The translations under genes were made by a program, and so were the position numbers. Under the pieces are notes generated by a model. It searched no databases and had not been told where the DNA came from. It saw only the letters and a list, made by a program, of their open reading frames with translations. From assembly GCA_903910385.1 (NCBI GenBank), contig CAIVZM010000081.1:1-37680 (forward strand): a stretch of 37,680 nucleotides of DNA, in the 5' to 3' direction. Within the stretch, counting starts at the first letter, position 1, and the number at the start of each line of letters is the position of its first letter. Source of the DNA: an uncultured Armatimonadota bacterium. Its GTDB lineage: Bacteria > Armatimonadota > Armatimonadia > Armatimonadales > Armatimonadaceae. Below are positions 22,027-37,451 of this stretch, one piece after another.

Positions 22027-24093
22027 TTAGCGTGCAAAAGACTGGACGGTAATCGCTCCGTACAGGCTTGATCCGTCGCCTTCGCGTTTGGTCATAACGC
22101 CTCTTCCGTCCTTATCTATCGAAAGGTCGAACCAGGAATAGCGGCCTTTCCGGTAGGCGAATGTTTCGCCGTCGTCGTCATAAAGCGCTCCGTGAGGCGT
22201 TTGATTTCCGTAGGAACGCAGAATAATCGGCGTTCCTTTGCGTAACGTTCCGGCGCGTAACTGAGGCGCAATCGTCGGTATCAATGCGCCATTGCGTACA
22301 AAGAGCGGGATCTTGTCCAGAGCGGGCGTCACTTCGATTGTTTCGCCGTCGCCGACCCGCTTGCCGGTTTCATAATCGAACCATTCGCCGTGGGGCAAGC
22401 GCACTTTCCGCGATTTCGTTCCGGCGAACATCGGAGCGACCAGGATATCATCGCCCAGCAGATATTGGTCTGTCTCATCGCCGCCATCTACCAGTGACAT
22501 AGCGCGTATGACGGGCGTCCCCTGATAATGATATTGCGCGAAAGCGGTGTACAGGTAGGGCAGAATCTCAATACGGAACTGCATTGCCTTCTTGACGGGT
22601 TCCTCGTAACCGGGGAAACTCCAGGGCTTGGTGCCATCCGCCCAGGCGTTCAACTGTGCGATATGCGAAAGTACCGCCGTCTGCATCCGGCGCACCCACT
22701 CCTCGCCGTTAGATGCGGAACGCGCCTCCGCACACCACATGACCCCCGCTAATCCTGCGCTCGTAATCCCGGTGACATATTCCCGGTGATCGTAGGTGTC
22801 GCTATAGATGGCGAAGGGGAATCGACTCGCGCCGCCGTTGGAACCGCGCACCAGACCAAATGTCCGCTTACCGGAGTCCTCGAACAGCGTTTCCAGTTCG
22901 CGTTGCCAGAGGACGCCATAAATTTGTCGCATCTGATCGCCGGGAATACCGGAGGGGAAAGCGGCATGATCCGGCCAGAGCCAGACATCGACTCCGTCCA
23001 CTTCATCGATCTTATAACCGCTGACGCCCAGATCAATTCCTACCGACTTATGGTGTTGTCGAACGATTTCGGCGGCTTTAGGAATGGTCAGATCTGGGAC
23101 AGCCCCCAGCCAGACCGTGTGCGAGGCGAAAAACGGTTTGAGCGGCGTATAAAGCGGCGAACTTTCCGCCACATAGGGGTTTTCCCACAAATTGACGCGC
23201 AGGTTATCGTCCCCCAGTTTTTTCAGGAATCCTGCTGGATCCGGAAAACGCTTCTCGCTCCAGACGAAGGAACCGGGATAGGATCGGGATTGCCAACCGG
23301 GTTCCAGCCCGACCACATCCAGCGGGAAGCTGCGTCGGTCAAACTCCTCCGTCTCGCGGGTAACCTCTTCGGCGCTCGCTTCCAGCGGAACGCGATGCCA
23401 GAAGCCCAGCGCCCAACGGGGAGGTAATGCCCCCCCGCCGCAAAACAGATTGTAGCGCCGGAGCGCATCCATCGGGGTCGGGCCTGCGAAAAGGAACACT
23501 TCCATACCCGGCGCCTGCACGGACGCTTCCACCGCATCCGAAGCGGGTTGCGCTTCCCATGCCGGGTCGGTGTTGCGGTCGCGTGATTTCGGATTTCCGG
23601 GCGAGCCGAGACGGTTCCCGACTCCCGCATAAATGGAAATAGGTCGCGCCGTATTGAAAAAGACCGCGTATCCCTTACTGCTTATATACAGGGGCGTCGG
23701 CGCATGGAGGCGATCCTTCCCACCGCTGTAATGATCCATCCGAAGATGGTAGACCCCGCCGCGACGGTCGCTGCCGTGCATCTGCAGTCCAAGCCCGTAC
23801 AGCTTTTCGTCCGGCAGAAGCGGAATCCGTGCGACCGCATGACCCGCCACATTTTCCCCGGAAGCGAGACTCAGGTCAATGGGCGGCGTTTCGACATCCC
23901 CCTGTTTTTTCAGAGCGTCCTTCGCCGGACGGGCGGCGGCGGCGGAAATCAGGTTCAGTTTGTCTTTACGACCGATGGTCGCCCGCCAGACTCCGGGCGC
24001 CACCCTGTCCCATTGGAGCGTTTTCGGGGGAGAAAGCGGGGCGGAAAGCGTAGAAATAGCCATAAATGCGGTCACAATGCCGAAAAGTGTCAT
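22027..24093 (-). CDS. Secreted GH31 glycoside hydrolase
   Basis: 688-residue retaining alpha-glycosidase (family includes alpha-glucosidases, alpha-xylosidases and alpha-galactosidases). A signal peptide covers about the first 18 residues (MTLFGIVTAFMAISTLSA). An N-terminal beta-sandwich reaches about 215, then the barrel begins with PPRWALGFWHR. The nucleophile is D363 in GVSGYKIDEVDG, and D432 or D435 in AIYSDTYDHREY is the likely acid/base. The barrel ends around LPYLYTAFAQYHYQGTPVIRAM, and a C-terminal beta region (LLGDDILVAPMF, VRLPHGEWFDY) follows, as usual. Substrate cannot be told from the motifs. AAAGGGA lies 7 nt before ATG 24093. It is transcribed behind the propeller-toroid gene, but a hairpin separates the two. 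Confidence 0.9.
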   Translation of the reverse strand: MTLFGIVTAFMAISTLSAPLSPPKTLQWDRVAPGVWRATIGRKDKLNLISAAAARPAKDALKKQGDVETPPIDLSLASGENVAGHAVARIPLLPDEKLYGLGLQMHGSDRRGGVYHLRMDHYSGGKDRLHAPTPLYISSKGYAVFFNTARPISIYAGVGNRLGSPGNPKSRDRNTDPAWEAQPASDAVEASVQAPGMEVFLFAGPTPMDALRRYNLFCGGGALPPRWALGFWHRVPLEASAEEVTRETEEFDRRSFPLDVVGLEPGWQSRSYPGSFVWSEKRFPDPAGFLKKLGDDNLRVNLWENPYVAESSPLYTPLKPFFASHTVWLGAVPDLTIPKAAEIVRQHHKSVGIDLGVSGYKIDEVDGVDVWLWPDHAAFPSGIPGDQMRQIYGVLWQRELETLFEDSGKRTFGLVRGSNGGASRFPFAIYSDTYDHREYVTGITSAGLAGVMWCAEARSASNGEEWVRRMQTAVLSHIAQLNAWADGTKPWSFPGYEEPVKKAMQFRIEILPYLYTAFAQYHYQGTPVIRAMSLVDGGDETDQYLLGDDILVAPMFAGTKSRKVRLPHGEWFDYETGKRVGDGETIEVTPALDKIPLFVRNGALIPTIAPQLRAGTLRKGTPIILRSYGNQTPHGALYDDDGETFAYRKGRYSWFDLSIDKDGRGVMTKREGDGSSLYGAITVQSFAR

Positions 24094-24200: not shown

Positions 24201-26462
24201 TTATCGAACCGGGGCGGAAATGAAGCCGTAGTAGCGTCCCATCCAGTACGCCATCAGCCAGTCGTTGGGACGGTCTTCGCGTTCGCCGTTGTTGCCGATG
24301 ACCATCTTGTACGGTTCCTGATCGAACATGCACAATCCCATTTCACTGCGCGGCGGCAGGCGTTTGAGGCGCAGTTCGTCGATACCGGGCGTCAGGTCAC
24401 GTTCCACGTCTTCGCGCCACCGGTTGTCCACCGTCCATTCGATATGGTCGAGAGGCCAATCGCGTAGCTGGGCGATAGATTTGTCCAGCGGTACGGCGTC
24501 GCCGGAAAATTTGTTGTAGGCAAAGTCATAAAACGGGATGTGATCGTTCTTTACCGCCGGATGCCAGCGACGCATACTCATCTGCATGACGTTTTTGAGC
24601 GTCGGGTTCAGCGCATAAGTGACGGCGTTCGGGTAGACGATTGTCAATAACTCATCCTCGATATGGGTGCGTTCCGAGGGAGTGACAAACGATATTTTCA
24701 TCGCCAGTTTGTCGTAGCCGTATTTTTCCATCAGGAGTTTTGTCGCCTCCTGATAGCGTGGTTTCCCCGTCATGTGGTACGCAACACTGAGGTGGGTGAG
24801 AATTTCGACGGCGTTCCCTGCCGCTTCTTCGTTCCATGTCGGGTCATCGATCAGACTGCCGGGATTCCAGTGACCCCAGCGGGTCGCTACCCCGTCGATA
24901 TCCTGTAGGACGAAGCCATGATCGACAATCCCGCCGATAATGCGGTCTACCTGTGCGGCGACCCTCTTCTTTTCTTCCGCATCGGCGGCGAGGTCATAGT
25001 AAAGCGCGTAACCGAACATATGCCCGTCGACTTCGTCGGAACTGGCATCCCGCTTCCACAGCCACTTACCATCAGGAGAGGGAACCCAGCGCTTTTCGAT
25101 GATTTTTTCACGAGGATCGGTACGGTGCGACTCCGCGATTTCCTGCGGGGTGAATGTCTGGTCTACCTCATGGCGCGGCGCGGTCCCGACAGGAAGGACG
25201 GAACGGGCGATAAAGTGGGCGGTTCCCGTCGCTTGTTGCAGGATTTCCATGGCATGGAACGCCGCCTTTGCGTTTTCGCGGGCGTCCGCCGCACCGGTGA
25301 CCGTATAGCGCAGAGACTCCACCGCAAGGTACATTCCGGTATGCTCGCCGTCGTTGTCGTCATCCTCGATGAAACTTCGGGAAAGATCGCCGGGCTTGAC
25401 CAGAACGGCAGGGCCGACAAGACCCGGCGGACGAATGTGACGCGCCCGAAGCATCTTGAGATAGTAATCCGCCTTATCCGCAAGGGTCATTTTCCGACGT
25501 CGAATCGCATCGACGCCTCCAGCGGTCGCTACCCATGCCGTTCCGTCTGCGCTGATGGCGATATCCCGCGCTTCATCGTGGGAGAGCCAGCGCTTGCTGT
25601 GGCGTAGCGTCCAGGAATCGCCGTTGTAGCGCACAACGCCATTTTTGGTCGCCGCCCAGATTCTCCCGTCGGCGTCCCGCGTGACGCTCATCGCGCCCTG
25701 GAACGGCATTCCCTGTTTCGCGGAAAGGGAGCGAATGCGTTTATCGCCCCGGTAAAAGTCCAGTCCTCCTGTTGTTGCAATACAGGTCTCGCTGTCTGAC
25801 AGCGCCAGTAAATCGGTCACGTTACTGCTCAGAAGTACATCGGGGCGACCGAAGCGGCGGGCGGGCGGCGAACCGAGCGCGAGATTTTGCAGATACAAAC
25901 CGCTCGCCGTCCCGATCCAGAGGCGATTATCTGCTGTGGGTTGTACGGAGCGTATAGCGCGATGCCATGCGCCTTTGACTTCCCCCCATTTGCCGTTCTG
26001 TCGGAGAAAAATTCCGGTCGGGCCAGCGACAACCAGAACCTCGCCTTTGCCATCGCGCCGCCCGCCGATTGCACCCACTGGCTTCAGAGCAAGGTCTGTG
26101 GGCGTCACGCGTTCCGAAGTCGCACGGAACAGACCGTTCCATGCGCCCACCCACAGGGTTCCGTCTCCATCCCGGTAGAGCGAATTTGCCGGGCCGACGC
26201 TATTGCCGCCCTCCGGCGTTTTCCATTGGCCGTTTTCCAAAAAGCGAACGCCCGCGCCCGTAGCTGCCCATACGCGCCCCTGATTATCCAGAGTGAGAGC
26301 GCGAACGTCGTTTTCTTCCGTCGTCGCCAGCGGATACGCTGCGTGGCTTTCTTGAAAGAACGGCGTATCCGCAATCGGCATCGTAGTCTGAGCGACGGCG
26401 AAAGGAGAGAAATACAGTAGAGTCAGGACAAGACTATTCAAAAAAGTGTATCGAAAGAGCAA
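24201..26462 (-). CDS. Secreted two-component-type propeller protein with alpha/alpha-toroid-like C-terminus
   Basis: 753 residues with a signal peptide (MLFRYTFLNSLVLTLLYFSPFAVA before QTT). Residues about 45-335 form repeats typical of the Reg_prop family found in the periplasmic sensor of hybrid two-component systems: VRALTLDNQGRVWAATGAGV, LYRDGDGTLWVGAWNGLFR, VQPTADNRLWIGTASGLYL, VTRDADGRIWAATKNGV, IAISADGTAWVATAGGVD. The rest, about 345-753, is mainly helical and Trp/Tyr/His-rich (RWGHWNPGSLIDDPTWNEEAAGN, HIEDELLTIVYPNAV), suggesting a six-hairpin or glycosidase-like toroid. No kinase or transmembrane segment follows. The TTG start at 26462 is supported by GGAGGA 6 nt upstream. Function unknown; glycan binding and cleavage is a reasonable guess. 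Confidence 0.75.
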   Translation of the reverse strand: MLFRYTFLNSLVLTLLYFSPFAVAQTTMPIADTPFFQESHAAYPLATTEENDVRALTLDNQGRVWAATGAGVRFLENGQWKTPEGGNSVGPANSLYRDGDGTLWVGAWNGLFRATSERVTPTDLALKPVGAIGGRRDGKGEVLVVAGPTGIFLRQNGKWGEVKGAWHRAIRSVQPTADNRLWIGTASGLYLQNLALGSPPARRFGRPDVLLSSNVTDLLALSDSETCIATTGGLDFYRGDKRIRSLSAKQGMPFQGAMSVTRDADGRIWAATKNGVVRYNGDSWTLRHSKRWLSHDEARDIAISADGTAWVATAGGVDAIRRRKMTLADKADYYLKMLRARHIRPPGLVGPAVLVKPGDLSRSFIEDDDNDGEHTGMYLAVESLRYTVTGAADARENAKAAFHAMEILQQATGTAHFIARSVLPVGTAPRHEVDQTFTPQEIAESHRTDPREKIIEKRWVPSPDGKWLWKRDASSDEVDGHMFGYALYYDLAADAEEKKRVAAQVDRIIGGIVDHGFVLQDIDGVATRWGHWNPGSLIDDPTWNEEAAGNAVEILTHLSVAYHMTGKPRYQEATKLLMEKYGYDKLAMKISFVTPSERTHIEDELLTIVYPNAVTYALNPTLKNVMQMSMRRWHPAVKNDHIPFYDFAYNKFSGDAVPLDKSIAQLRDWPLDHIEWTVDNRWREDVERDLTPGIDELRLKRLPPRSEMGLCMFDQEPYKMVIGNNGEREDRPNDWLMAYWMGRYYGFISAPVR

Positions 26463-26588
26463 GAGAAATCCTCCGGAATGTTCCGTTAGCCCTTGAATTC
26501 ATCAGAGCTGGCATAATCTCCTTATTCTGGATATCACGCCTGATCCGCCATAACTAACCGAGGAAAGAGTCTAACGCTGTTACTGCGA

Positions 26589-28001
26589 TCAGGTGAGAAT
26601 GCTTTTGATGACCTGTGACGGTTCGACGCCGGTCAGTTTGGCGTCCAGTCCCTGGAACTTGTAGGTGAAGGACTCATGCGCGACGCCCAACTGGTGGAGC
26701 ATGGTCGCATGAAGATCGTGTACCGTTGTCACGTTCTCGATGGCGGCATAGCCCAGGTCGTCCGTTGCGCCGTGAACCATGCCGCCGCGAACGCCCGCTC
26801 CGGCAAGCCAGACGGACATCGCCTTATTATGGTGGTCGCGTCCGCTACCGCCCTGTGACATGGGAGTGCGCCCGAACTCGCCCGCCCAGACAATCAGGGT
26901 GTCTTCCAGCATTCCCCGCTGTTTCAAATCCGTGATCAGCGCCATACAGGCGCGGTCGATTTCCAGTGATTTGAGCCGGATTCCCTCTTTGATATCGCCG
27001 TGATGATCCCAGTCCTTGTGGTAAAGCTGGATGAAGCGGACGCCTTTTTCGGCGAGTCGACGCGCCAGCAGGCAGTTCGACGCAAACGAGCCGTCGCCGG
27101 GCTGACACCCGTACAGTTCCAGCGTTTCTTTCTTTTCGCGGGAGACATCCAGCAATGCCGGGACGCTCGCCTGCATCTGGAACGCCAGTTCGTACTGCGC
27201 GATACGGGTGGCGATTTCCGGGTCGTCCGCCACGGTATTGTATTCTTTATTGAGCGCGTTTATCGCCCTGATATCACTGCCCTGACGATCCCGCGTGACG
27301 CCCGGAGGGTTCGCCATATATAAGACCGGGTCGCCCTTACTACGCAACTGGACGCCCTGATACTTGCTGGGAAGGAAGCCGCTACTCCACTGTCGCGCCG
27401 CAATCGGCTGATTTTGCCCGCCCTGACCCAGCGAGGTCAGCACCACGAAGCCCGGTAAGTCTTTTGCCAGATTGCCAAGACCGTAGGTCACCCACGAACC
27501 CATGCTCGGTCTGCCCGCGATCTGCGAACCGGTGTTCATGAACATATGCGCGGGATCATGGTTGATAGCATCGGTGGTCATGGAGCGGATCAGGCAGATT
27601 TCATCCATGACGGAGCCGATATGCGGAAGCAGGGCGCTGATTTCGATCTGGTTCTTGCCGTATCGGGCGAAGGGGTGTTGCGGCCCGAAGCAGGTCAGTC
27701 GTTGCCCCTGCAGTTGCGCCAATTGTTGCCCTTTCGTCATGCTATCGGGCATGGGCTGACCGTTCATCGCCGCCAGTTTGGGCTTGGGGTCGAACGTCTC
27801 CAGATGCGACGGCCCGCCCGCCATACTGAGCCAGATGACCCGCTTCGCTTTCTGAGGCAAGGTGACGACTCCCTGCGCGTGCGCCTTACCTTCCAGAGAC
27901 GCCAGCGCTAACGCTCCCAGACCGTGGACGGCGCGACCCAGTAGCGCCCGGCGGGTCATTTGCTGGGAGCGGAATTGTTTGAGTTCTGATTCTCTTGTCA
28001 T
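26589..28001 (-). CDS. DUF1501 family protein with Tat-type signal
   Basis: 470 residues. The DUF1501 domain belongs to the alkaline-phosphatase-like superfamily and is always found in Planctomycetes and related phyla beside DUF1553 genes; its reaction is not established. Motifs are AKRVIWLSMAGGPSHLETFDPKP, ICLIRSMTTDAINHDPAHMFMNTGSQ, PSMGSWVTYGLGN, ARRLAEKGVRFIQLYHKDWDHHGDI, WAGEFGRTPMSQGGSGRDHHNKAMSVWLAGAGVRGG, and NVTTVHDLHATMLHQLG. Twin arginines in MTRRALLGRAVHGLG indicate Tat export. I prefer ATG 28001 (TTRESEL-type N-terminus) to the first ATG at 28082, which would overlap the upstream gene. It starts 23 nt after the DUF1553 gene, so they form one operon. Confidence 0.9.
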   Translation of the reverse strand: MTRESELKQFRSQQMTRRALLGRAVHGLGALALASLEGKAHAQGVVTLPQKAKRVIWLSMAGGPSHLETFDPKPKLAAMNGQPMPDSMTKGQQLAQLQGQRLTCFGPQHPFARYGKNQIEISALLPHIGSVMDEICLIRSMTTDAINHDPAHMFMNTGSQIAGRPSMGSWVTYGLGNLAKDLPGFVVLTSLGQGGQNQPIAARQWSSGFLPSKYQGVQLRSKGDPVLYMANPPGVTRDRQGSDIRAINALNKEYNTVADDPEIATRIAQYELAFQMQASVPALLDVSREKKETLELYGCQPGDGSFASNCLLARRLAEKGVRFIQLYHKDWDHHGDIKEGIRLKSLEIDRACMALITDLKQRGMLEDTLIVWAGEFGRTPMSQGGSGRDHHNKAMSVWLAGAGVRGGMVHGATDDLGYAAIENVTTVHDLHATMLHQLGVAHESFTYKFQGLDAKLTGVEPSQVIKSILT

Positions 28002-28024
28002 AGTCTTAATGGTTATCGTAGGTA

Positions 28025-31000
28025 TCAGGGACGGGTGATGGTCTCGTGAAGATTGAGTAGCGTTCGTGCGACGTGCATCCACGCGGCGAGTTCGGCTTTA
28101 TCCACCATCGGCGGCAGGGGCGCATTTCCCGTCTTGAGAAGCGCTTCTGCGGATGCGGCATCGTTCTGATAGGCGGCGCGGCGCTCTTTGTAGACGTTTT
28201 GCAGGATCTGAAATTCCGCAGGGGTGGGGGTACGTTGAAGCGTCTGGCGCCACGCCCAGTTCAGGCGCTGTTCCGGCGTTCCTTTCGCTTCGGTCAGGAT
28301 ACGCGCCCCGAAGGAACGGGCTGCCTCCACATATGTCGGGTCGTTCAGAGTGACCAGCGCCTGTTGCGGAATATTGGAGCGGTTGCGTTCGGCGGTGCAC
28401 TCTTCCCGACTCGGGGCGTCGAACGCGAGCATCGACGGGTGCAGAAAACTCCGCTGCCACCAGGCATAAAGACCACGGCGGTACTGGCTTTCGCCCTTAT
28501 CCGCCATGTAGTCGCGCACCGGGAAGTTGAGATTTTCCCAGTACCGTTCCGGTTGATAAGGCTTGACGCTGGGACCGCCGATCTTCAAAGACAGCAGACC
28601 GGATACCGCCAGAGCATTGTCCCGCACTTCTTCCGCGTCCAGACGGAATCGGCTCTGTCGAGCGAACTCCCGGTTATAGGGGTCACGCGCCAGCAGAGAT
28701 TTGCTGGCGGTGGATGCGAGCGAATTGCTCCGCAATTCGCTGACCTGTTTGTAGGTGGCGCTGTTTACCAGCATTCGCACCATATGTTTGGTATCCCAAC
28801 CGCTATCCCGGAACTCGCAGGCAAGCCAGTCCAGCAACTCTGGATTTGTGGGCGGTTCTCCCTGTGCGCCGAGGTCTTCGAGGACTTTGCTCAGTCCGGT
28901 TCCGAAGAACTGCTTCCACAGACGGTTCACCACGGTTCGCGCCGTCAGCGGGTTTTCTTTGCTGACCAGCCAGTTGGCGAGATCAAGGCGCGTTCCGCCT
29001 TTTGCCGGGGGCAGGAACGCCGGAGTGGCGGGCTTGACCACTTCACCGCTCTCATCCATGAAATTTCCGCGAGGCAGGATACGAACCGTCCGGGGATTGT
29101 TATTTTTGACCGTCACCAGACACCGACCGATAGTCGCTTCATACTCGTTTCGCCCCTTTGTCGCTTCGGCGATCTCATTGCGCAGAGGAGCAAGGTCTGG
29201 CGCGATAGTCTTAAAGTAGGTGTGGAGTTTTTCTGTTTGCGCGGATGTACGCTTCTCCAGAGGGAGGGACACAATATCGGCGATCTCTCGGGGCGCCGCT
29301 GTCAACGGTCGCGGAACGGTAGGATTTCCGGTGACCGACAGGCGGAATTTACCCAGAGTATGGGAGTCGCCATGATTCTGCTTCAGCGTTACTTGAAGGA
29401 TTTCGCTATCGGATAACGTTAATTTCTCGGTAAGTGTCAGCGCCAGCGATTGCGCCTGGCCTGCCTGCGGAAGTATCGCCCATCCGAAGCTGTCGCCTTT
29501 TGCATCACCGTCGATGACGGAAGTGGCGTTCCACAGTCGGTAGGGGTTTCCCTCTGCGTATTCTTTTTGCTCAAAGGAAGCTTGCGCGGCGCCAAACCGG
29601 ATGAGGCGCGGTTGCGTCCCAGCCTTGAGGATCTGCGCCTCCACTTCCGTGAGAACGAAGTTGCCATTTCCGGCGCGACCCGGACCCTGAGAAGGCAGCG
29701 AGGTGTCGGGGAGGGCTTCCAACCGCAGTCCGGTCAGCGTGCCGGACATCTTTAGATCGATGGTATAAGCGGTTTTATCGGGAGACGCTCCCTGAGCGAG
29801 CACGGCGCTATCCGTTTGGACGTTCAGTTGAACGCCGTTGATCGCGGTGGCTCTGATCGGTTTTAACGCCGTCCACAGCGCCTGTGACGCTATTTCCTCG
29901 CGGACGCTTTTTTCCCATTCGCTCTGCGCCGACGCTACTTCGGGATGGGGCGCATCGAATTTCCGCTGTAGTTCGGACACATGAGCGTCCCGGCGGGCGA
30001 GTTCGCTTTTCTGGGCAGTATCGGGCGTGAGCATCCCCGGTTCGCGTGCCCCTATAATGTCCTCTCTGATATCGGCGAAGTAGGCTCCCAGCGTATAGAA
30101 GTCGCGGGTGCGAATCGGGTCGAACTTGTGGTCATGGCATTGAGCGCACCCGGTGGTCTGCCCCAGCCAGACCGTCCCGACCGCACGTACCCGGTCGGTC
30201 AGGTAACGCGCCTCGTAGTCTTTGGGCTGTCCGCCGCCTTCTTCGGTGGTCAGCAAAAGCCGATTGAATGCCGACCCAATGCGCGTTTCTTGATTGGCAT
30301 CGGGAAGCAAGTCTCCGGCGAGTTGCTCCCGCGTGAAGCGGTCAAAGCGTTTATTCGAATTGAAGGAGGCGATAACCCAGTCCCGGTACGGCCAGATGTT
30401 GCGCGGCGTGTCGCTGTGATAGCCGATAGTGTCGGCGAATCGGACGACATCGAGCCAACCTTGCGCCATCCGTTCGCCATAGTGCGGGCTTGCCAGCAGA
30501 CGCTCGACCAGGTTTTCATATGCCTTCGGCGATTTGTCCTGCTCGAAGGCGGTCACTTCGGCGGGAGTCGGGGGAAGTCCGATCAGGTCAAAGGAAAGGC
30601 GTCGGATTAGCGTCCGCCGATCTGCCTGGGGCGAGGGCTTGAGACCGATTTCCGTCAGTCGTTTCTGTACCAGAAAGTCTATCGGGTTCTTGCCAGCGGG
30701 AATCGCGGCTTTCACCGGCGCTTCATACGACCAGTGTTTCTGATAGATAGCCCCTTCGTCGATCCAGCGCAGCAGGAGGCGCTTCTGTATCGGCGTCAGC
30801 GTTTTATGGAAATCGGCGGGCGGCATCTGACGGGCGTCGCCCGCGGGAGCCATGATCCGGCGCGTCAGTTCGCTCATGAGAACGTCGCCCGGAATAATAG
30901 CGCTATTGGGCTGATCAAGCCTCAGATTTGCCTGCCGCTTGTTTTTGTCCGGGCCATGACAGGCGAAGCAGTTATTGGAGAGGATGGGGCGGATATCGCG

Positions 31001-31168
31001 GTTGAAGACAATCTTTGTCGGTATCGTTTCCGCTGGCATTGTGTGGGCAGGCATCGGCGGCGCAGGCTTCATTGGTCCGGCGAGGCTGATTCCGGCGAAG
31101 ACAGCGGTGGGCAACCCGCAACAAACAATTTTGAGGACGTTCATAGTTCTTTCCGTACTCTTATCCAT
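28025..31168 (-). CDS. PSCyt1-DUF1549-DUF1553 cytochrome-type protein
   Basis: 1047 residues from ATG 31168, with an export signal around MNVLKIVCCGLPTAVFAG. A PSCyt1 domain has one c-type heme site C67-FACH in ILSNNCFACHGP and MPPADFHKTLT later. DUF1549 follows (ADRRTLIRRLSFDLIGLPPTPAEV, YGERMAQGWLDVVRFADT), containing another CxxCH in GCAQCHDHKFDPIRTRDFY. A middle region of about 350 residues includes a lectin/discoidin-like beta segment. DUF1553 closes the protein (DLANWLVSKENPLTARTVVNRLWKQFFGTGL, NPELLDWLACEFRDSGW). The function of these proteins is unproven; they occur with sulfatase/glycan genes. AGGAGG lies close to ATG 31168; ATG 31144 is the alternative. Confidence 0.92.
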   Translation of the reverse strand: MDKSTERTMNVLKIVCCGLPTAVFAGISLAGPMKPAPPMPAHTMPAETIPTKIVFNRDIRPILSNNCFACHGPDKNKRQANLRLDQPNSAIIPGDVLMSELTRRIMAPAGDARQMPPADFHKTLTPIQKRLLLRWIDEGAIYQKHWSYEAPVKAAIPAGKNPIDFLVQKRLTEIGLKPSPQADRRTLIRRLSFDLIGLPPTPAEVTAFEQDKSPKAYENLVERLLASPHYGERMAQGWLDVVRFADTIGYHSDTPRNIWPYRDWVIASFNSNKRFDRFTREQLAGDLLPDANQETRIGSAFNRLLLTTEEGGGQPKDYEARYLTDRVRAVGTVWLGQTTGCAQCHDHKFDPIRTRDFYTLGAYFADIREDIIGAREPGMLTPDTAQKSELARRDAHVSELQRKFDAPHPEVASAQSEWEKSVREEIASQALWTALKPIRATAINGVQLNVQTDSAVLAQGASPDKTAYTIDLKMSGTLTGLRLEALPDTSLPSQGPGRAGNGNFVLTEVEAQILKAGTQPRLIRFGAAQASFEQKEYAEGNPYRLWNATSVIDGDAKGDSFGWAILPQAGQAQSLALTLTEKLTLSDSEILQVTLKQNHGDSHTLGKFRLSVTGNPTVPRPLTAAPREIADIVSLPLEKRTSAQTEKLHTYFKTIAPDLAPLRNEIAEATKGRNEYEATIGRCLVTVKNNNPRTVRILPRGNFMDESGEVVKPATPAFLPPAKGGTRLDLANWLVSKENPLTARTVVNRLWKQFFGTGLSKVLEDLGAQGEPPTNPELLDWLACEFRDSGWDTKHMVRMLVNSATYKQVSELRSNSLASTASKSLLARDPYNREFARQSRFRLDAEEVRDNALAVSGLLSLKIGGPSVKPYQPERYWENLNFPVRDYMADKGESQYRRGLYAWWQRSFLHPSMLAFDAPSREECTAERNRSNIPQQALVTLNDPTYVEAARSFGARILTEAKGTPEQRLNWAWRQTLQRTPTPAEFQILQNVYKERRAAYQNDAASAEALLKTGNAPLPPMVDKAELAAWMHVARTLLNLHETITRP

Positions 31169-31274
31169 CGCCTCCTCTTTCCCCTGCAAAGTCCGGTACG
31201 CTTTTCCGTAAATCAGGCAAGACCCGGTAGAGGCAGGTGACGTTTTCCGCACAGCATCTCTGGCTTTAGTAAAG

Positions 31275-31280
31275 TATAAT
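31275..31280 (+). promoter_or_regulatory. Possible -10 box for the rightward DUF1553 gene
   Basis: Perfect TATAAT 47 bp before ATG 31328, in the short gap between the two divergent cytochrome genes. No clear -35 hexamer is visible at normal spacing, so this rests on the -10 alone. Confidence 0.35.
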
Positions 31281-31327
31281 CTTCACGGCAAAGGGATTTA
31301 TGTCGCCAGTGGCGAACGGGGGTAATT

Positions 31328-34294
31328 ATGCATCGTATCGCATCGCTTCTGGGACTGATGGCGCTCCCTATTGCGCTGGCGCTGGCGACTCCGCCGTCTG
31401 CGACGGAGCAGGCGACATCGGAGTTTTTTGAAAACTCCGTTCGACCTATTCTTGTCACCCGGTGCGTCTCGTGCCATGGAGCGACTCAGCAAATGGGCAA
31501 TTTGCGACTGGATAGAGGCATCACTCCGGCGCAGGCGCAAAAGCTGGTACGAGCGATTGGTTATGAAGCAAGCGTCAAGATGCCGCCATCAGGGCGACTC
31601 TCGGAGAGCGACCGGGCGGCGCTGACACGCTGGGCGAACTCCGGGGCGTCCTTCCCGAAAACTTCGACCAGCGCTGGTCGCGGAGGATCGCAATCGTGGC
31701 CGTTTACGCCATTACGTCCGCCGCTTGCGCCGCCCGTGGATCAGGCGCGAACGGATATCGATGCCTTCCTTCTGGCGAAACTTCACACACTGGGACTGAC
31801 ATTCGCTCCCCCGGCGGACAGGCGAACGCTGATTCGGCGTGTCTCTTTTGATCTGACCGGGCTACCGCCGACCCCGGAAAAAGTCGAATCTTTCGTCGCT
31901 GACAGACGTCCCGACGCTTACGAACGGGTGGTCGATGAACTTCTGGCATCGCCGGGATACGGCGAGCGTTGGGGCAGGCGATGGCTGGATGTAGCGCGGT
32001 ACGCCGACTCCGCCGACGCCCGTGGACTCGGCGGCGAGGGCGATATCAGCGAGGCATGGCGGTATCGTGATTGGGTCATCGGGGCATTGAACGCCGATAT
32101 CCCCTATACCGATTTTATCCGTCTCCAACTCGCAGGAGACCTTTACGACGACCCTGTGCCGACCGGTTTTCTGGCGATTGGAAACTGGGGAAACGGCGAT
32201 GCCGACAAAGACAAGATTCTCACCGATATCGCCGATGATCAGGTGGACGTGACAAGTAAGGCGTTCCTCGGTCTGACCGTTGGGTGCGCTCGTTGTCATG
32301 ACCACAAGTTCGACCCCATCTCGACCAGAGACTATTACTCACTGGCGGGAATCTTCTTTTCCAGCCATATCCTGCCCCGTCTGACCCCGAAAGGTCAGGG
32401 CGAAGTCATGTTGCGGATTCCGCTGGAAACGCCCGGCCAGAAAGCCGCGCAGGCGAAACTCGCGGAAATGAATCGGCGTCTTGCGACAGAACGGGACGCC
32501 GCACAGAAAGCGGTAGCGGAAAAATGGGCGCAGGAGGCGAAGGCGGGGCGTATTCTTGACCGGGCGAAATGGGACGAGTTTATCGGCGTCGGCGGACCGT
32601 CCACACTGAGGATTCCGTTTCAGCGATTGGGCGATGTGGCAGGGATTGAGGGCGTCAAAGGCGAAAAAGAGGCCCTCAGCGCCACCGTGAACACGACAGC
32701 GCAGGCGCAACGAATTTTGACATTCACGTTGCCGCCGCGTTCGGTCAATCTCCATCCCAGCCCAACTGCCGGAGTGGCGGCGATCTGGAAAGCGGAACAT
32801 AGCGGAACCGTAGCGGTGGAAGCGTCCCTGATGGATGCCGACCCCGCCTGCGGCGATGGGTTCGCGTGGGAATTACGTCAGGGGGATGTCGTTCTGGAGA
32901 AGGGGAAAGTCGAAAATGGCGGAAAATCTCCTCTGCTGAAACGCTCAGTGACGGTTCGTGAGGGGGAAATTCTCCTGCTGTGCATCCTTCCCGGCGGCGA
33001 ATACAGTTGTGATACCACCACTATCGCCTGGAAAGTGGGCGACCGGAATCTGACCGCCGATGCGCTGGCGAATCCGGGTAAAGGGGCGTTTGGGCCGTGG
33101 CGTTTCGCCGACCTTGGCGCGATCAAGCGGACGCCGGAGATGGAAGCGGTCATTTCCCTATGGAAATCTGGTGATCAGACAAAAGCCCTGAATCTTGCCG
33201 CAATGTTGCCTCCTGACCAGAAGGAAAAGGGCGGATTTTTGCCGGACAGTGAAGCGTTTCTGATGCCAGAAGCGAAAGCATCCCGCGACGCTCTGGAAAA
33301 GGAACGCGCCGCCTTGAAGGCGCAAATTCCGGCGACCCCGCAAATCGCCAACGGCATCGCGGAAGGGGGCGTTCCTGGAAGCCAGCATGAGGGCATCCAT
33401 GATGTCCGGGTGCATCGGCGGGGACGCTACGATAATCTTGGCGACATTGTTCCCCGTGGCGCTCCGGTCGTTCTGGGCGGCGGACCCCTTCCCATCACTT
33501 CCGGTAGTGGACGGCGCGAACTGGGGCAATGGATCGCCAGTGAGAAGAACCCGATGACAGCACGGGTCATTGCCAACCGTATCTGGCAGGGGCATTTCGG
33601 ACGTGGAATCGTGGCGACTCCGAGTAACTTCGGTCTGCTGGGCGAAAAACCGACCCACCCGGAACTGCTGGACTGGCTGGCGTCCCGACTGATCGCCGAC
33701 GGATGGAGTTTGAAAAAGCTCCATCGGCGTATCGTCACCAGCGATGCCTACCGACAATCTTCCGTTCCGTCGAAGGCGGCGCTCGCTCGCGACCCGGACA
33801 ATCGTCTGCTATCGCGTGCGCCGCGTCTCCGGTTAGAGTCCGAAGCCCTGCGCGACAGCCTGCTGTCAGTTACCGGGAAACTGGATCGGACATCGGGCGG
33901 AATGGCGTTCCGCGACCTTGCGATTCCGCGCCGAACTGTTTACGCGATGACAATCCGGTCTGATCGCACGGGCTTCGGGCCACTCTTCGATGCCGCCGAT
34001 TCGACCAACAGTATCGAAAAACGGACTATTTCCACGGTTGCCCCGCAAGCCCTGTACCTGCTCAACAGCCCCTTTGCGCTGGAACAGGCGCAGGCGCTCG
34101 CGATCCGTCTCAGAGCGCATCCCGGTACGGACAATGATCGGATCGACTATATCTACCGGCTTCTTTACTCCCGGCCACCGACCGCACGGGAAATCACTCT
34201 GGGGAAATCTTTCCTGATGCAATCGGGTGGGGACGGTTGGGACGCCTACGCTCAGGTCTTGCTCTGCGCGAATGAATTCTTTTATGTGGACTGA
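31328..34294 (+). CDS. PSCyt1-DUF1549-DUF1553 cytochrome-type protein, second copy
   Basis: 988 residues with signal peptide MHRIASLLGLMALPIALALA. The heme motif CVSCH is at 46-50 in ILVTRCVSCHGATQQMG. DUF1549 has IDAFLLAKLHTLGLTFAPPADRRTLIRRVSFDLTGLPPTPEKV, RWGRRWLDVARYADSADARG and GCARCHDHKFDPISTRDYY. A coiled, Ala/Lys/Glu-rich segment (QKAAQAKLAEMNRRLATERDAAQ) follows. DUF1553 is at the end (GQWIASEKNPMTARVIANRIWQGHFGRGIV, PELLDWLASRLIADGWSLKKLHRRIV). It is only partly similar to the leftward copy, so this is an old duplication or a separately acquired pair. GGGGG lies 6 nt before ATG 31328. The DUF1501 gene follows 4 nt after the stop. Confidence 0.93.
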   Translation: MHRIASLLGLMALPIALALATPPSATEQATSEFFENSVRPILVTRCVSCHGATQQMGNLRLDRGITPAQAQKLVRAIGYEASVKMPPSGRLSESDRAALTRWANSGASFPKTSTSAGRGGSQSWPFTPLRPPLAPPVDQARTDIDAFLLAKLHTLGLTFAPPADRRTLIRRVSFDLTGLPPTPEKVESFVADRRPDAYERVVDELLASPGYGERWGRRWLDVARYADSADARGLGGEGDISEAWRYRDWVIGALNADIPYTDFIRLQLAGDLYDDPVPTGFLAIGNWGNGDADKDKILTDIADDQVDVTSKAFLGLTVGCARCHDHKFDPISTRDYYSLAGIFFSSHILPRLTPKGQGEVMLRIPLETPGQKAAQAKLAEMNRRLATERDAAQKAVAEKWAQEAKAGRILDRAKWDEFIGVGGPSTLRIPFQRLGDVAGIEGVKGEKEALSATVNTTAQAQRILTFTLPPRSVNLHPSPTAGVAAIWKAEHSGTVAVEASLMDADPACGDGFAWELRQGDVVLEKGKVENGGKSPLLKRSVTVREGEILLLCILPGGEYSCDTTTIAWKVGDRNLTADALANPGKGAFGPWRFADLGAIKRTPEMEAVISLWKSGDQTKALNLAAMLPPDQKEKGGFLPDSEAFLMPEAKASRDALEKERAALKAQIPATPQIANGIAEGGVPGSQHEGIHDVRVHRRGRYDNLGDIVPRGAPVVLGGGPLPITSGSGRRELGQWIASEKNPMTARVIANRIWQGHFGRGIVATPSNFGLLGEKPTHPELLDWLASRLIADGWSLKKLHRRIVTSDAYRQSSVPSKAALARDPDNRLLSRAPRLRLESEALRDSLLSVTGKLDRTSGGMAFRDLAIPRRTVYAMTIRSDRTGFGPLFDAADSTNSIEKRTISTVAPQALYLLNSPFALEQAQALAIRLRAHPGTDNDRIDYIYRLLYSRPPTAREITLGKSFLMQSGGDGWDAYAQVLLCANEFFYVD

Positions 34295-35732: not shown

Positions 35733-37301
35733 CTACTTATTGACTTTGAACGGTGTCGATGTTGCGCCGGTGATACGCATTTCTCTGGGATACTGCATAT
35801 CCATTCCTTTGCGTAAGTCTTCTCGCTTTATAACGCCGGGAAGGACGGGGGTGCAACGATAGGAAAAGAAGGGATCTTTCATCCGCAAACGGAGGACGAC
35901 TTTGCCGCTCTGATCGAGTTCGGTTACCATCGCGTTCTGACCCCATTCTGTCACCCAGTCGCCCTTTGGCAGTTTGCGGGCGCTACCGCAACACCACGCA
36001 TCCGGCGCATCCTTGTCCGTGACCTGCTCCAGCCATTGGGCGGTATGCGCGTTCTCATCAATCCGGTAGCGTACCGCCCGTGGAGCACGTCCAAAAGTCG
36101 TGCCGTTATCATGGACTGTCAGGGTGCCGTCCGGCAGGATACGCGCATCATGTTGTCCTCCGAAGTTGCCGTTGGGGTCGCGCACAAAGCGCAGACTCTC
36201 CGGCCCCTGTGCGCCGCCCCGGTATGATCCGCCCAGTTTCCAGAGCCTTGCGCCCGTCGCCCGGTCAATGCGGATGACCGCATTGAGATGGCGTAAGGAC
36301 ATGACATAACCGGTACCATCCAACTCTACCGAGTTCATATGATAGGGGTCTGCCGGGGAGGAATACACCAGATAGTTTTGCCGCCAGTTCGGCTCTGTCT
36401 CAGAGATATCGATATGATCCATCGATGACCAGCGCCAGACAACCTCGCCTTTCGGCGTGACTTCCTCGATCACGTTATCCAGTACATTTGCGGTCGCGGA
36501 ACCGCCGTAGGCGCTCAAATCTACCGGGCCGCGCACGACTCCCACGATATAGAGGTAGTTGCCGTTCGGAAGAAGCGTCAGTTCATGGTTGTCCATGAAA
36601 CCGTCTTTGGGTTGGAGAGTCTGGGTAACCTTGCCATCAAGCGTTCGGATTTCCCCGACCGAGGGATTCTGCGCGAATGTCAACCACCCGATTTTCCCAT
36701 CGGGAAGAAATTTGGCGTCGATCGGTACGGGAGATTTCTGATACCACCACAGGGGTACGCCGAAATTGTCCGCGACAATGACATAGTTGTGCAACTCTCC
36801 AAAATCCCGCCGAATGTTGGGAGCGAAAACATAGTATGCCGCCTGGGGGACGCCGGGGCGTTCGGTCAGATAGCCGGGGAAATTTGCCGGCAAACGGCGA
36901 ACGTAATACGTACGTACGCCGGAGGGGAGACTCACCTTGAACGGTAAACTCTGCCCCTCTTTGAAGTTATCGACACGTTGCGTGAAGACGAATGACCGGA
37001 ATAACTGACCGTCTACCGAGACTTTTGTATTCCTCGGCGCGCTCACCGAAAATTGCAGGGAGTCATCTGCGCTCGCCCCGACGACATAATCGGTGATATT
37101 GGGGTCGAAGGGAGGATTGAGAGCGGGAGTGGTCAAAATCTGGACGGACGCCGCTGTCTGGAGCGATTTTGCCGATTGTGGCAATGCAATGAGCGCAAAG
37201 ACGACGCCGATGACAGCGAAAAGACTGATTCCTTTGAGGAACTGAAGCAGACGATAATGCCGGATGGATAGCGAAGAACTCCGCCGGTTGCCCTGAAACA
37301 T
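35733..37301 (-). CDS. Arylsulfotransferase (ASST)-family membrane-anchored protein
   Basis: 522 residues from ATG 37301. A basic N-terminus (MFQGNRRSSSLSIRHYRLL) precedes one hydrophobic segment (FLKGISLFAVIGVVFALIAL), a signal anchor. A beta-sandwich (VQILTTPALNPPFDPNITDYVVGA, cadherin-like N-domain of ASSTs) comes next. A propeller follows with the ASST strings LHNYVIVADNFGVPLWWYQ, NHELTLLPNGNYLYIVG, DNVIEEVTPKGEVVWRW, HMNSVELDGTGYVMSLRHLNAVIRIDRATGARLWKLGG and GQHDARILPDG. ASSTs move sulfuryl groups between phenols; the histidines in NHEL, YHMN and GQHD are the likely active site. GAGGGGG lies 9 nt before ATG 37301. A longer frame to 37436 lacks a ribosome-binding site. Confidence 0.85.
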   Translation of the reverse strand: MFQGNRRSSSLSIRHYRLLQFLKGISLFAVIGVVFALIALPQSAKSLQTAASVQILTTPALNPPFDPNITDYVVGASADDSLQFSVSAPRNTKVSVDGQLFRSFVFTQRVDNFKEGQSLPFKVSLPSGVRTYYVRRLPANFPGYLTERPGVPQAAYYVFAPNIRRDFGELHNYVIVADNFGVPLWWYQKSPVPIDAKFLPDGKIGWLTFAQNPSVGEIRTLDGKVTQTLQPKDGFMDNHELTLLPNGNYLYIVGVVRGPVDLSAYGGSATANVLDNVIEEVTPKGEVVWRWSSMDHIDISETEPNWRQNYLVYSSPADPYHMNSVELDGTGYVMSLRHLNAVIRIDRATGARLWKLGGSYRGGAQGPESLRFVRDPNGNFGGQHDARILPDGTLTVHDNGTTFGRAPRAVRYRIDENAHTAQWLEQVTDKDAPDAWCCGSARKLPKGDWVTEWGQNAMVTELDQSGKVVLRLRMKDPFFSYRCTPVLPGVIKREDLRKGMDMQYPREMRITGATSTPFKVNK

Positions 37302-37451
37302 CGTTTTATACCCCCTCGTCGGTGGTGATTGGCGAAAAAGATTGACTGGCGCCGCGCAACTATCGAAAGCGAAGTCTACGGGGAATCGTCGCCGAAGCGG
37401 CAGTGCGCGCCAGTACGCTGAAAGCATCGCAATCATGGATGCCCATGCGAA

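Follow-up and report, generated by a model that had tools for sequence, protein, structure and literature searches.

An exported Reg_prop propeller joined to a predicted (alpha/alpha)-barrel domain without a described family in Armatimonadota

What does an exported Reg_prop propeller do when it is followed by a helical toroid and not by a kinase? The question is raised by an ORF at 24201..26462 (minus strand; 753 aa plus stop) in a 37,680-nucleotide stretch of DNA from an uncultured Armatimonadota bacterium, called the window here. Translation starts at a TTG codon at 26462, 7 nt downstream of a GGAGG ribosome-binding site (26470..26474, minus strand). The ORF is not a chance one, because ten relatives were 64-70% identical to its product over the C-terminal domain; over the full length, identity was 55-60%. 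Residues 1-25 (26388..26462, minus strand) have the features of a signal peptide, with a putative AVA-Q cleavage site and the hydropathy maximum over residues 6-24 (a mean of 1.58 for the best 19-residue stretch, counted from residue 6). Beyond residue 40 the highest mean was 1.11, and no membrane segment was found there by hydropathy. Judged by these features, the protein is predicted to be secreted.

The segment after the signal peptide was identified as a propeller by sequence and by predicted fold. Pfam detected four Reg_prop repeats (PF07494, E 1.9e-15; 55.4 bits against a gathering score of 20.4) and no kinase, receiver or Y_Y_Y domain. AlphaFold2 placed the strands of seven blades at residues 53-81, 92-121, 131-161, 170-204, 215-246, 257-287 and 298-325, with the last blade closed by the N-terminal strand 35-43, so that residues 30-325 (25488..26375, minus strand) form a single seven-bladed propeller in the model. 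Foldseek searches with the full-length model returned the sensor propellers of BT4663, BT3049 and BT4673 first (3v9f, 3ott), followed by virginiamycin B lyase (Vgb), and a sequence search agreed that those three sensor domains are the nearest solved structures. When the protein's own genome was searched with the Reg_prop repeat model, no match was obtained at E 0.001, the 24-position model being too short. The Bacteroides hybrid two-component sensors to which BT4663, BT3049 and BT4673 belong thus share an exported Reg_prop seven-bladed propeller with the window protein; they carry two propellers, Y_Y_Y, a membrane segment and a kinase, whereas the window protein has one propeller and a toroid. 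Hybrid-sensor identity was rejected, since Pfam found no Y_Y_Y, kinase, receiver or AraC domain and no hydrophobic segment follows residue 40. The preliminary description, made from the letters alone, had proposed Reg_prop repeats after a signal peptide with neither membrane segment nor kinase, and both points were borne out.

The toroid half was characterized by structure prediction. The helical domain begins near residue 326-327 in the AlphaFold2 model, not at 340 as first proposed, and occupies residues 326-753 (24204..25487, minus strand). The full-length model, computed with 14 sequences, had a pLDDT of 86.9 and a pTM of 0.84, and the C-terminal domain alone had a pLDDT of 84.7 and a pTM of 0.89; the high pTM suggests a defined packing between the two modelled halves. 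Foldseek comparison of the C-terminal domain alone with the PDB retrieved cellobiose 2-epimerases/AGE, GH76, GH9 and GH146 proteins, nearly all of them sugar-acting. The match probability was up to 1.00, but TM was only ~0.43-0.46, with an rmsd of ~9 A and 8-13% identity, so the matches of the model are convincing at the level of fold class and weak in detail. The early proposal of a toroid-like domain, to be compared with sugar-acting barrels after structure prediction, therefore held for the model: at fold level the predicted domain belongs to the (alpha/alpha)6-barrel enzyme class. A hydrolase, lyase or epimerase class is not readable from the fold, because TM was at most ~0.46 and the rmsd ~9 A. 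An aromatic-rich character, also proposed at first, was not distinctive (10.0% W/F/Y vs 5.8-10.9% in other window proteins).

Sequence comparison did not assign the toroid to a described family. Neither Pfam nor NCBIfam had a family over it, and the 38-member family assembled around it likewise had no match at cut-off. PDB sequence searches with profiles of 38 and 29 family members gave nothing significant, a viral structure library gave no match at E 0.001, and PHROGs gave none for the toroid or for a relative on a viral contig. The sole sequence hints were sub-threshold matches to GH127/GH146, GH88 and C5-epimerase. We also compared HMMs of the extended toroid family with HMMs of reference alignments built from Armatimonadota proteins of the AGE, GH127, GH88, GH76 and C5-epimerase groups. 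The toroid family scored 75% with AGE, 68% with GH127, 23% with GH88, 7% with GH76 and 4% with C5-epimerase; between the known families, scores were 49% for GH127-GH88, 43% for GH127-AGE, 62% for GH88-AGE and up to 98% for AGE-GH76, and the propeller, used as a negative control, scored 0.1-0.3%. These scores indicated that the toroid behaves as a separate branch of the (alpha/alpha)-barrel class, set apart from the recognised families by roughly the distance seen among these. GH127/GH146 beta-L-arabinofuranosidases (PF07944) resemble it in barrel fold, in HMM-HMM score and in weak sub-threshold profile matches: six of the 38 members matched PF07944 below cut-off (best E 0.0025), and the window protein did not match. 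GH127 enzymes have a Cys-Zn site; GH127-type chemistry was rejected, as the toroid contains only C711 and the wider family has no conserved Cys. GH76 (PF03663) gave no Pfam match in the 38 members, and GH88/GH105 (PF07470) gave none in the window protein. The parts of the pairing are of known kinds; the toroid family, which is without a description, and a conserved pair of blades are new.

The toroid carries six conserved motifs (all coordinates on the minus strand). D369-N-D-G372 (25347..25358) is kept in 37 of 38 core members, and A419-R420 (25203..25208) at 51/52 for each residue in the wider family of 52 sequences. W469-K-R-D472-A-S474-S-D476-E-V-D-G-H481 (25020..25058), with the signature D.S.D...G, contains an S474 that is invariant (52/52), together with D476 (48/52) and D472 (45/52). 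The acidic cluster H600-I-E602-D603-E604 (24651..24665) reads HSDDE in most members, and its D603 is present in all 38 core and 42/52 wider members. R683-E-D685 (24408..24416) is found in 38/38 and 37/38 core members, with R683 at 48/52 in the wider set; Y739-W740 in the last helix (24243..24248) is present in 38/38 core members, with W740 at 51/52. DNDG, SSDE..GH, H..DE and R.D hardly vary in the core group and make up a candidate active site; D, E, H, R, W, S and G are abundant among the residues that are fixed there. GH76 uses a tandem Asp catalytic pair; in the window protein an acidic pair is seen in the sequence at 602-603. In distant members DNDG is changed, and H481, H600 and the H..DE cluster are not retained, so that members may differ in chemistry or may in some cases lack activity.

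Conservation was distributed very unevenly over the protein. Among the 38 core members, 67 columns had at least 90% identity; 59 were in the toroid, seven in blades 6-7, one in blade 1 and none in blades 2-5. Within the propeller, good conservation was thus limited to blades 6-7 (residues 250-325, 25488..25715, minus strand), which include R291-W292-L293 and had an occupancy of 98-99%; that of blades 2-3 was 64-66%. This pattern suggests that the last two blades may be structurally coupled to the toroid, rather than belonging to a separate glycan-binding module.

We consider it probable that the protein is a secreted glycan-active enzyme of a putative (alpha/alpha)-barrel family without a description, most likely a glycoside hydrolase. 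Catalysis would be the task of the toroid, with acidic residues that are conserved in its DNDG, D.S.D and H..DE loops. The propeller would pack on the toroid through the last two blades, which would help to shape or close the cleft, and the outer blades, variable in number and sequence, may tune substrate binding. The predicted fold, the profile scores and the conservation pattern speak for an enzyme; we infer catalysis, a glycan substrate, a hydrolase over a lyase or epimerase, the catalytic residues and the packing and role of the blades. A GH31 gene lying just downstream on the same strand was counted in favour of an enzyme.

The same data bear on a rather unlikely alternative, in which both halves bind ligands and the protein serves in glycan binding or surface assembly, with the toroid as a non-catalytic scaffold. 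The model for it is PorZ of Porphyromonas gingivalis, a secreted, kinase-free, Reg_prop-like propeller protein that is similar to BT4663 and binds a glycan, A-LPS (PMC8545088). The NCBIfam PorZ model matched the window protein weakly (E 4e-6, far below cut-off), and the absence of some acidic motifs from distant members would suit a binding protein. PorZ, however, consists of two propellers and a beta-sandwich at the C terminus and has no toroid, whereas the window protein has one propeller and a toroid; moreover, the conserved polar residues lie in the toroid and not in the propeller, and an inert scaffold that carries a propeller for binding should show the reverse. For a Reg_prop-like protein without a kinase, PorZ is a precedent (PMC8545088); the preliminary description knew of no described family with the whole architecture, and no described family covers the toroid.

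It is less likely still that the toroid is a secreted sugar epimerase or isomerase of the AGE type and not a hydrolase. The AGE/cellobiose 2-epimerase family (PF07221) shares the (alpha/alpha)6 barrel, supplies the top Foldseek matches and has the best HMM-HMM score, and H481 and H600 are conserved in core members of the toroid family. Both His residues are, however, not retained in distant members, and at E 0.1 PF07221 was matched by neither the 38 members nor the window protein. A further argument against this reading is that AGE enzymes normally work in the cytoplasm, on free sugars. That the protein senses glycans and signals by way of a partner, its toroid passing the signal on to another protein in the membrane, is very improbable: the propeller is homologous to those of hybrid two-component sensors, but there is no membrane segment, no Y_Y_Y domain and no conserved signalling neighbour.

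The family is widely distributed in the phylum. Its profile matched 86/291 Armatimonadota genomes (~30%), from many families of the phylum, with one to eight copies each; the genome of the window protein has two copies. When all bacterial genomes were scanned with a single protein as query, every match with a named phylum was in Armatimonadota. The propeller-toroid pairing is therefore widespread in this phylum and not a one-off fusion. The region ahead of the toroid spans 153 to 606 residues in the 38 aligned core members, except for one (L063) with only ~49; another relative (L111) has only ~150 residues there, apparently about three blades. Short N-terminal regions are scattered over the tree and need ~8 changes, on crude length classes and provisional start codons.

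A divergent branch of five relatives has no Reg_prop (L098:1883-4207, L099:1802-4282, L100:1718-4006, L101:1934-3946 and L102:2816-4906). Their match to the toroid profile is split, and ~180-320 residues with BNR/Asp-box repeats precede the last helix, so that a BNR/Sortilin-type propeller is apparently inserted between the toroid body and that helix. The toroid is thus combined with one type of propeller in this branch and with another elsewhere in the family, which we count in favour of an enzyme. The initial idea that the propeller was recruited as a glycan-binding module for an enzyme survives in part. The resemblance of the toroid to sugar-acting enzymes agrees with it; a lone recruitment does not fit a family present in ~30% of genomes, in which the propeller region is reduced or enlarged and a different propeller is found in one branch, and glycan binding is a role that the propeller could have.

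We tentatively put forward a bolder version, although we doubt that all of it will hold: the toroid would found a new carbohydrate-active enzyme family, the last two blades would be an obligatory part of the active site, propeller and barrel would form one catalytic unit, and this arrangement would have been reached a second time with the BNR propeller inserted in the barrel. Secreted propeller-plus-toroid architecture is known from glycan degradation in BT1020, a GH143 propeller with a GH142 (alpha/alpha)6 domain; that propeller, in contrast, is five-bladed, catalytic and of another family, and the window protein matches neither GH142 nor GH143. Armatimonadota have been little characterised and carry many carbohydrate enzymes, and a toroid family in 86/291 genomes, with neither a database model nor a solved structure, would be a promising candidate when new enzyme families are sought. 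The conserved blade pair makes a testable claim of the propeller as part of the catalytic site and not an add-on binding module.

Some relatives occur in other settings. One toroid is fused to an FGE-sulfatase (formylglycine-generating-enzyme-like) domain (L103:2030-3901). Another relative, at 26% identity, has no propeller and begins like a lipoprotein; it lies on a viral contig (IMGVR_UViG_3300035701_006044; L067:4878-6083) that also carries ParB/DNA-methyltransferase and replication-type genes, and it keeps the RD.S.D and AYWMGRY motifs and is without DNDG. No match was obtained for this relative in a phage collection, or for three family members in a plasmid collection. At two loci (L003:6990-11368 and L011:6981-11358), two family members stand tail to tail and differ in their N-terminal regions, which are long in one and short in the other; further genes on either side are common to both loci, including an ABC-transporter permease, and L003 has a BNR_2 protein.

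In the window, the propeller-toroid gene is the third of four neighbouring genes on the minus strand. It is preceded by genes for a PSCyt/DUF1549-DUF1553 protein (28025..31252) and a DUF1501 protein (26589..28082; PF07394, E 8e-153), and followed by the gene for a GH31 alpha-glycosidase-like protein (22027..24093; PF01055, E 7.9e-38). The spacing is compatible with co-transcription of the four genes; promoter and terminator scans were no better than chance. Among 102 proteins flanking the relatives there was no recurrent partner, and GH31 was not conserved beside them. Gene neighbourhoods are not shared among the relatives and so offer no operon-based clue to a substrate. The region 26589-34294 holds two planctomycete-type PSCyt/PSD1 proteins encoded divergently (28025-31252, minus strand; 31328-34294, plus strand), one of them followed by DUF1501, and an arylsulfotransferase-like (ASST) protein is encoded near the same cluster at 35733-37436.
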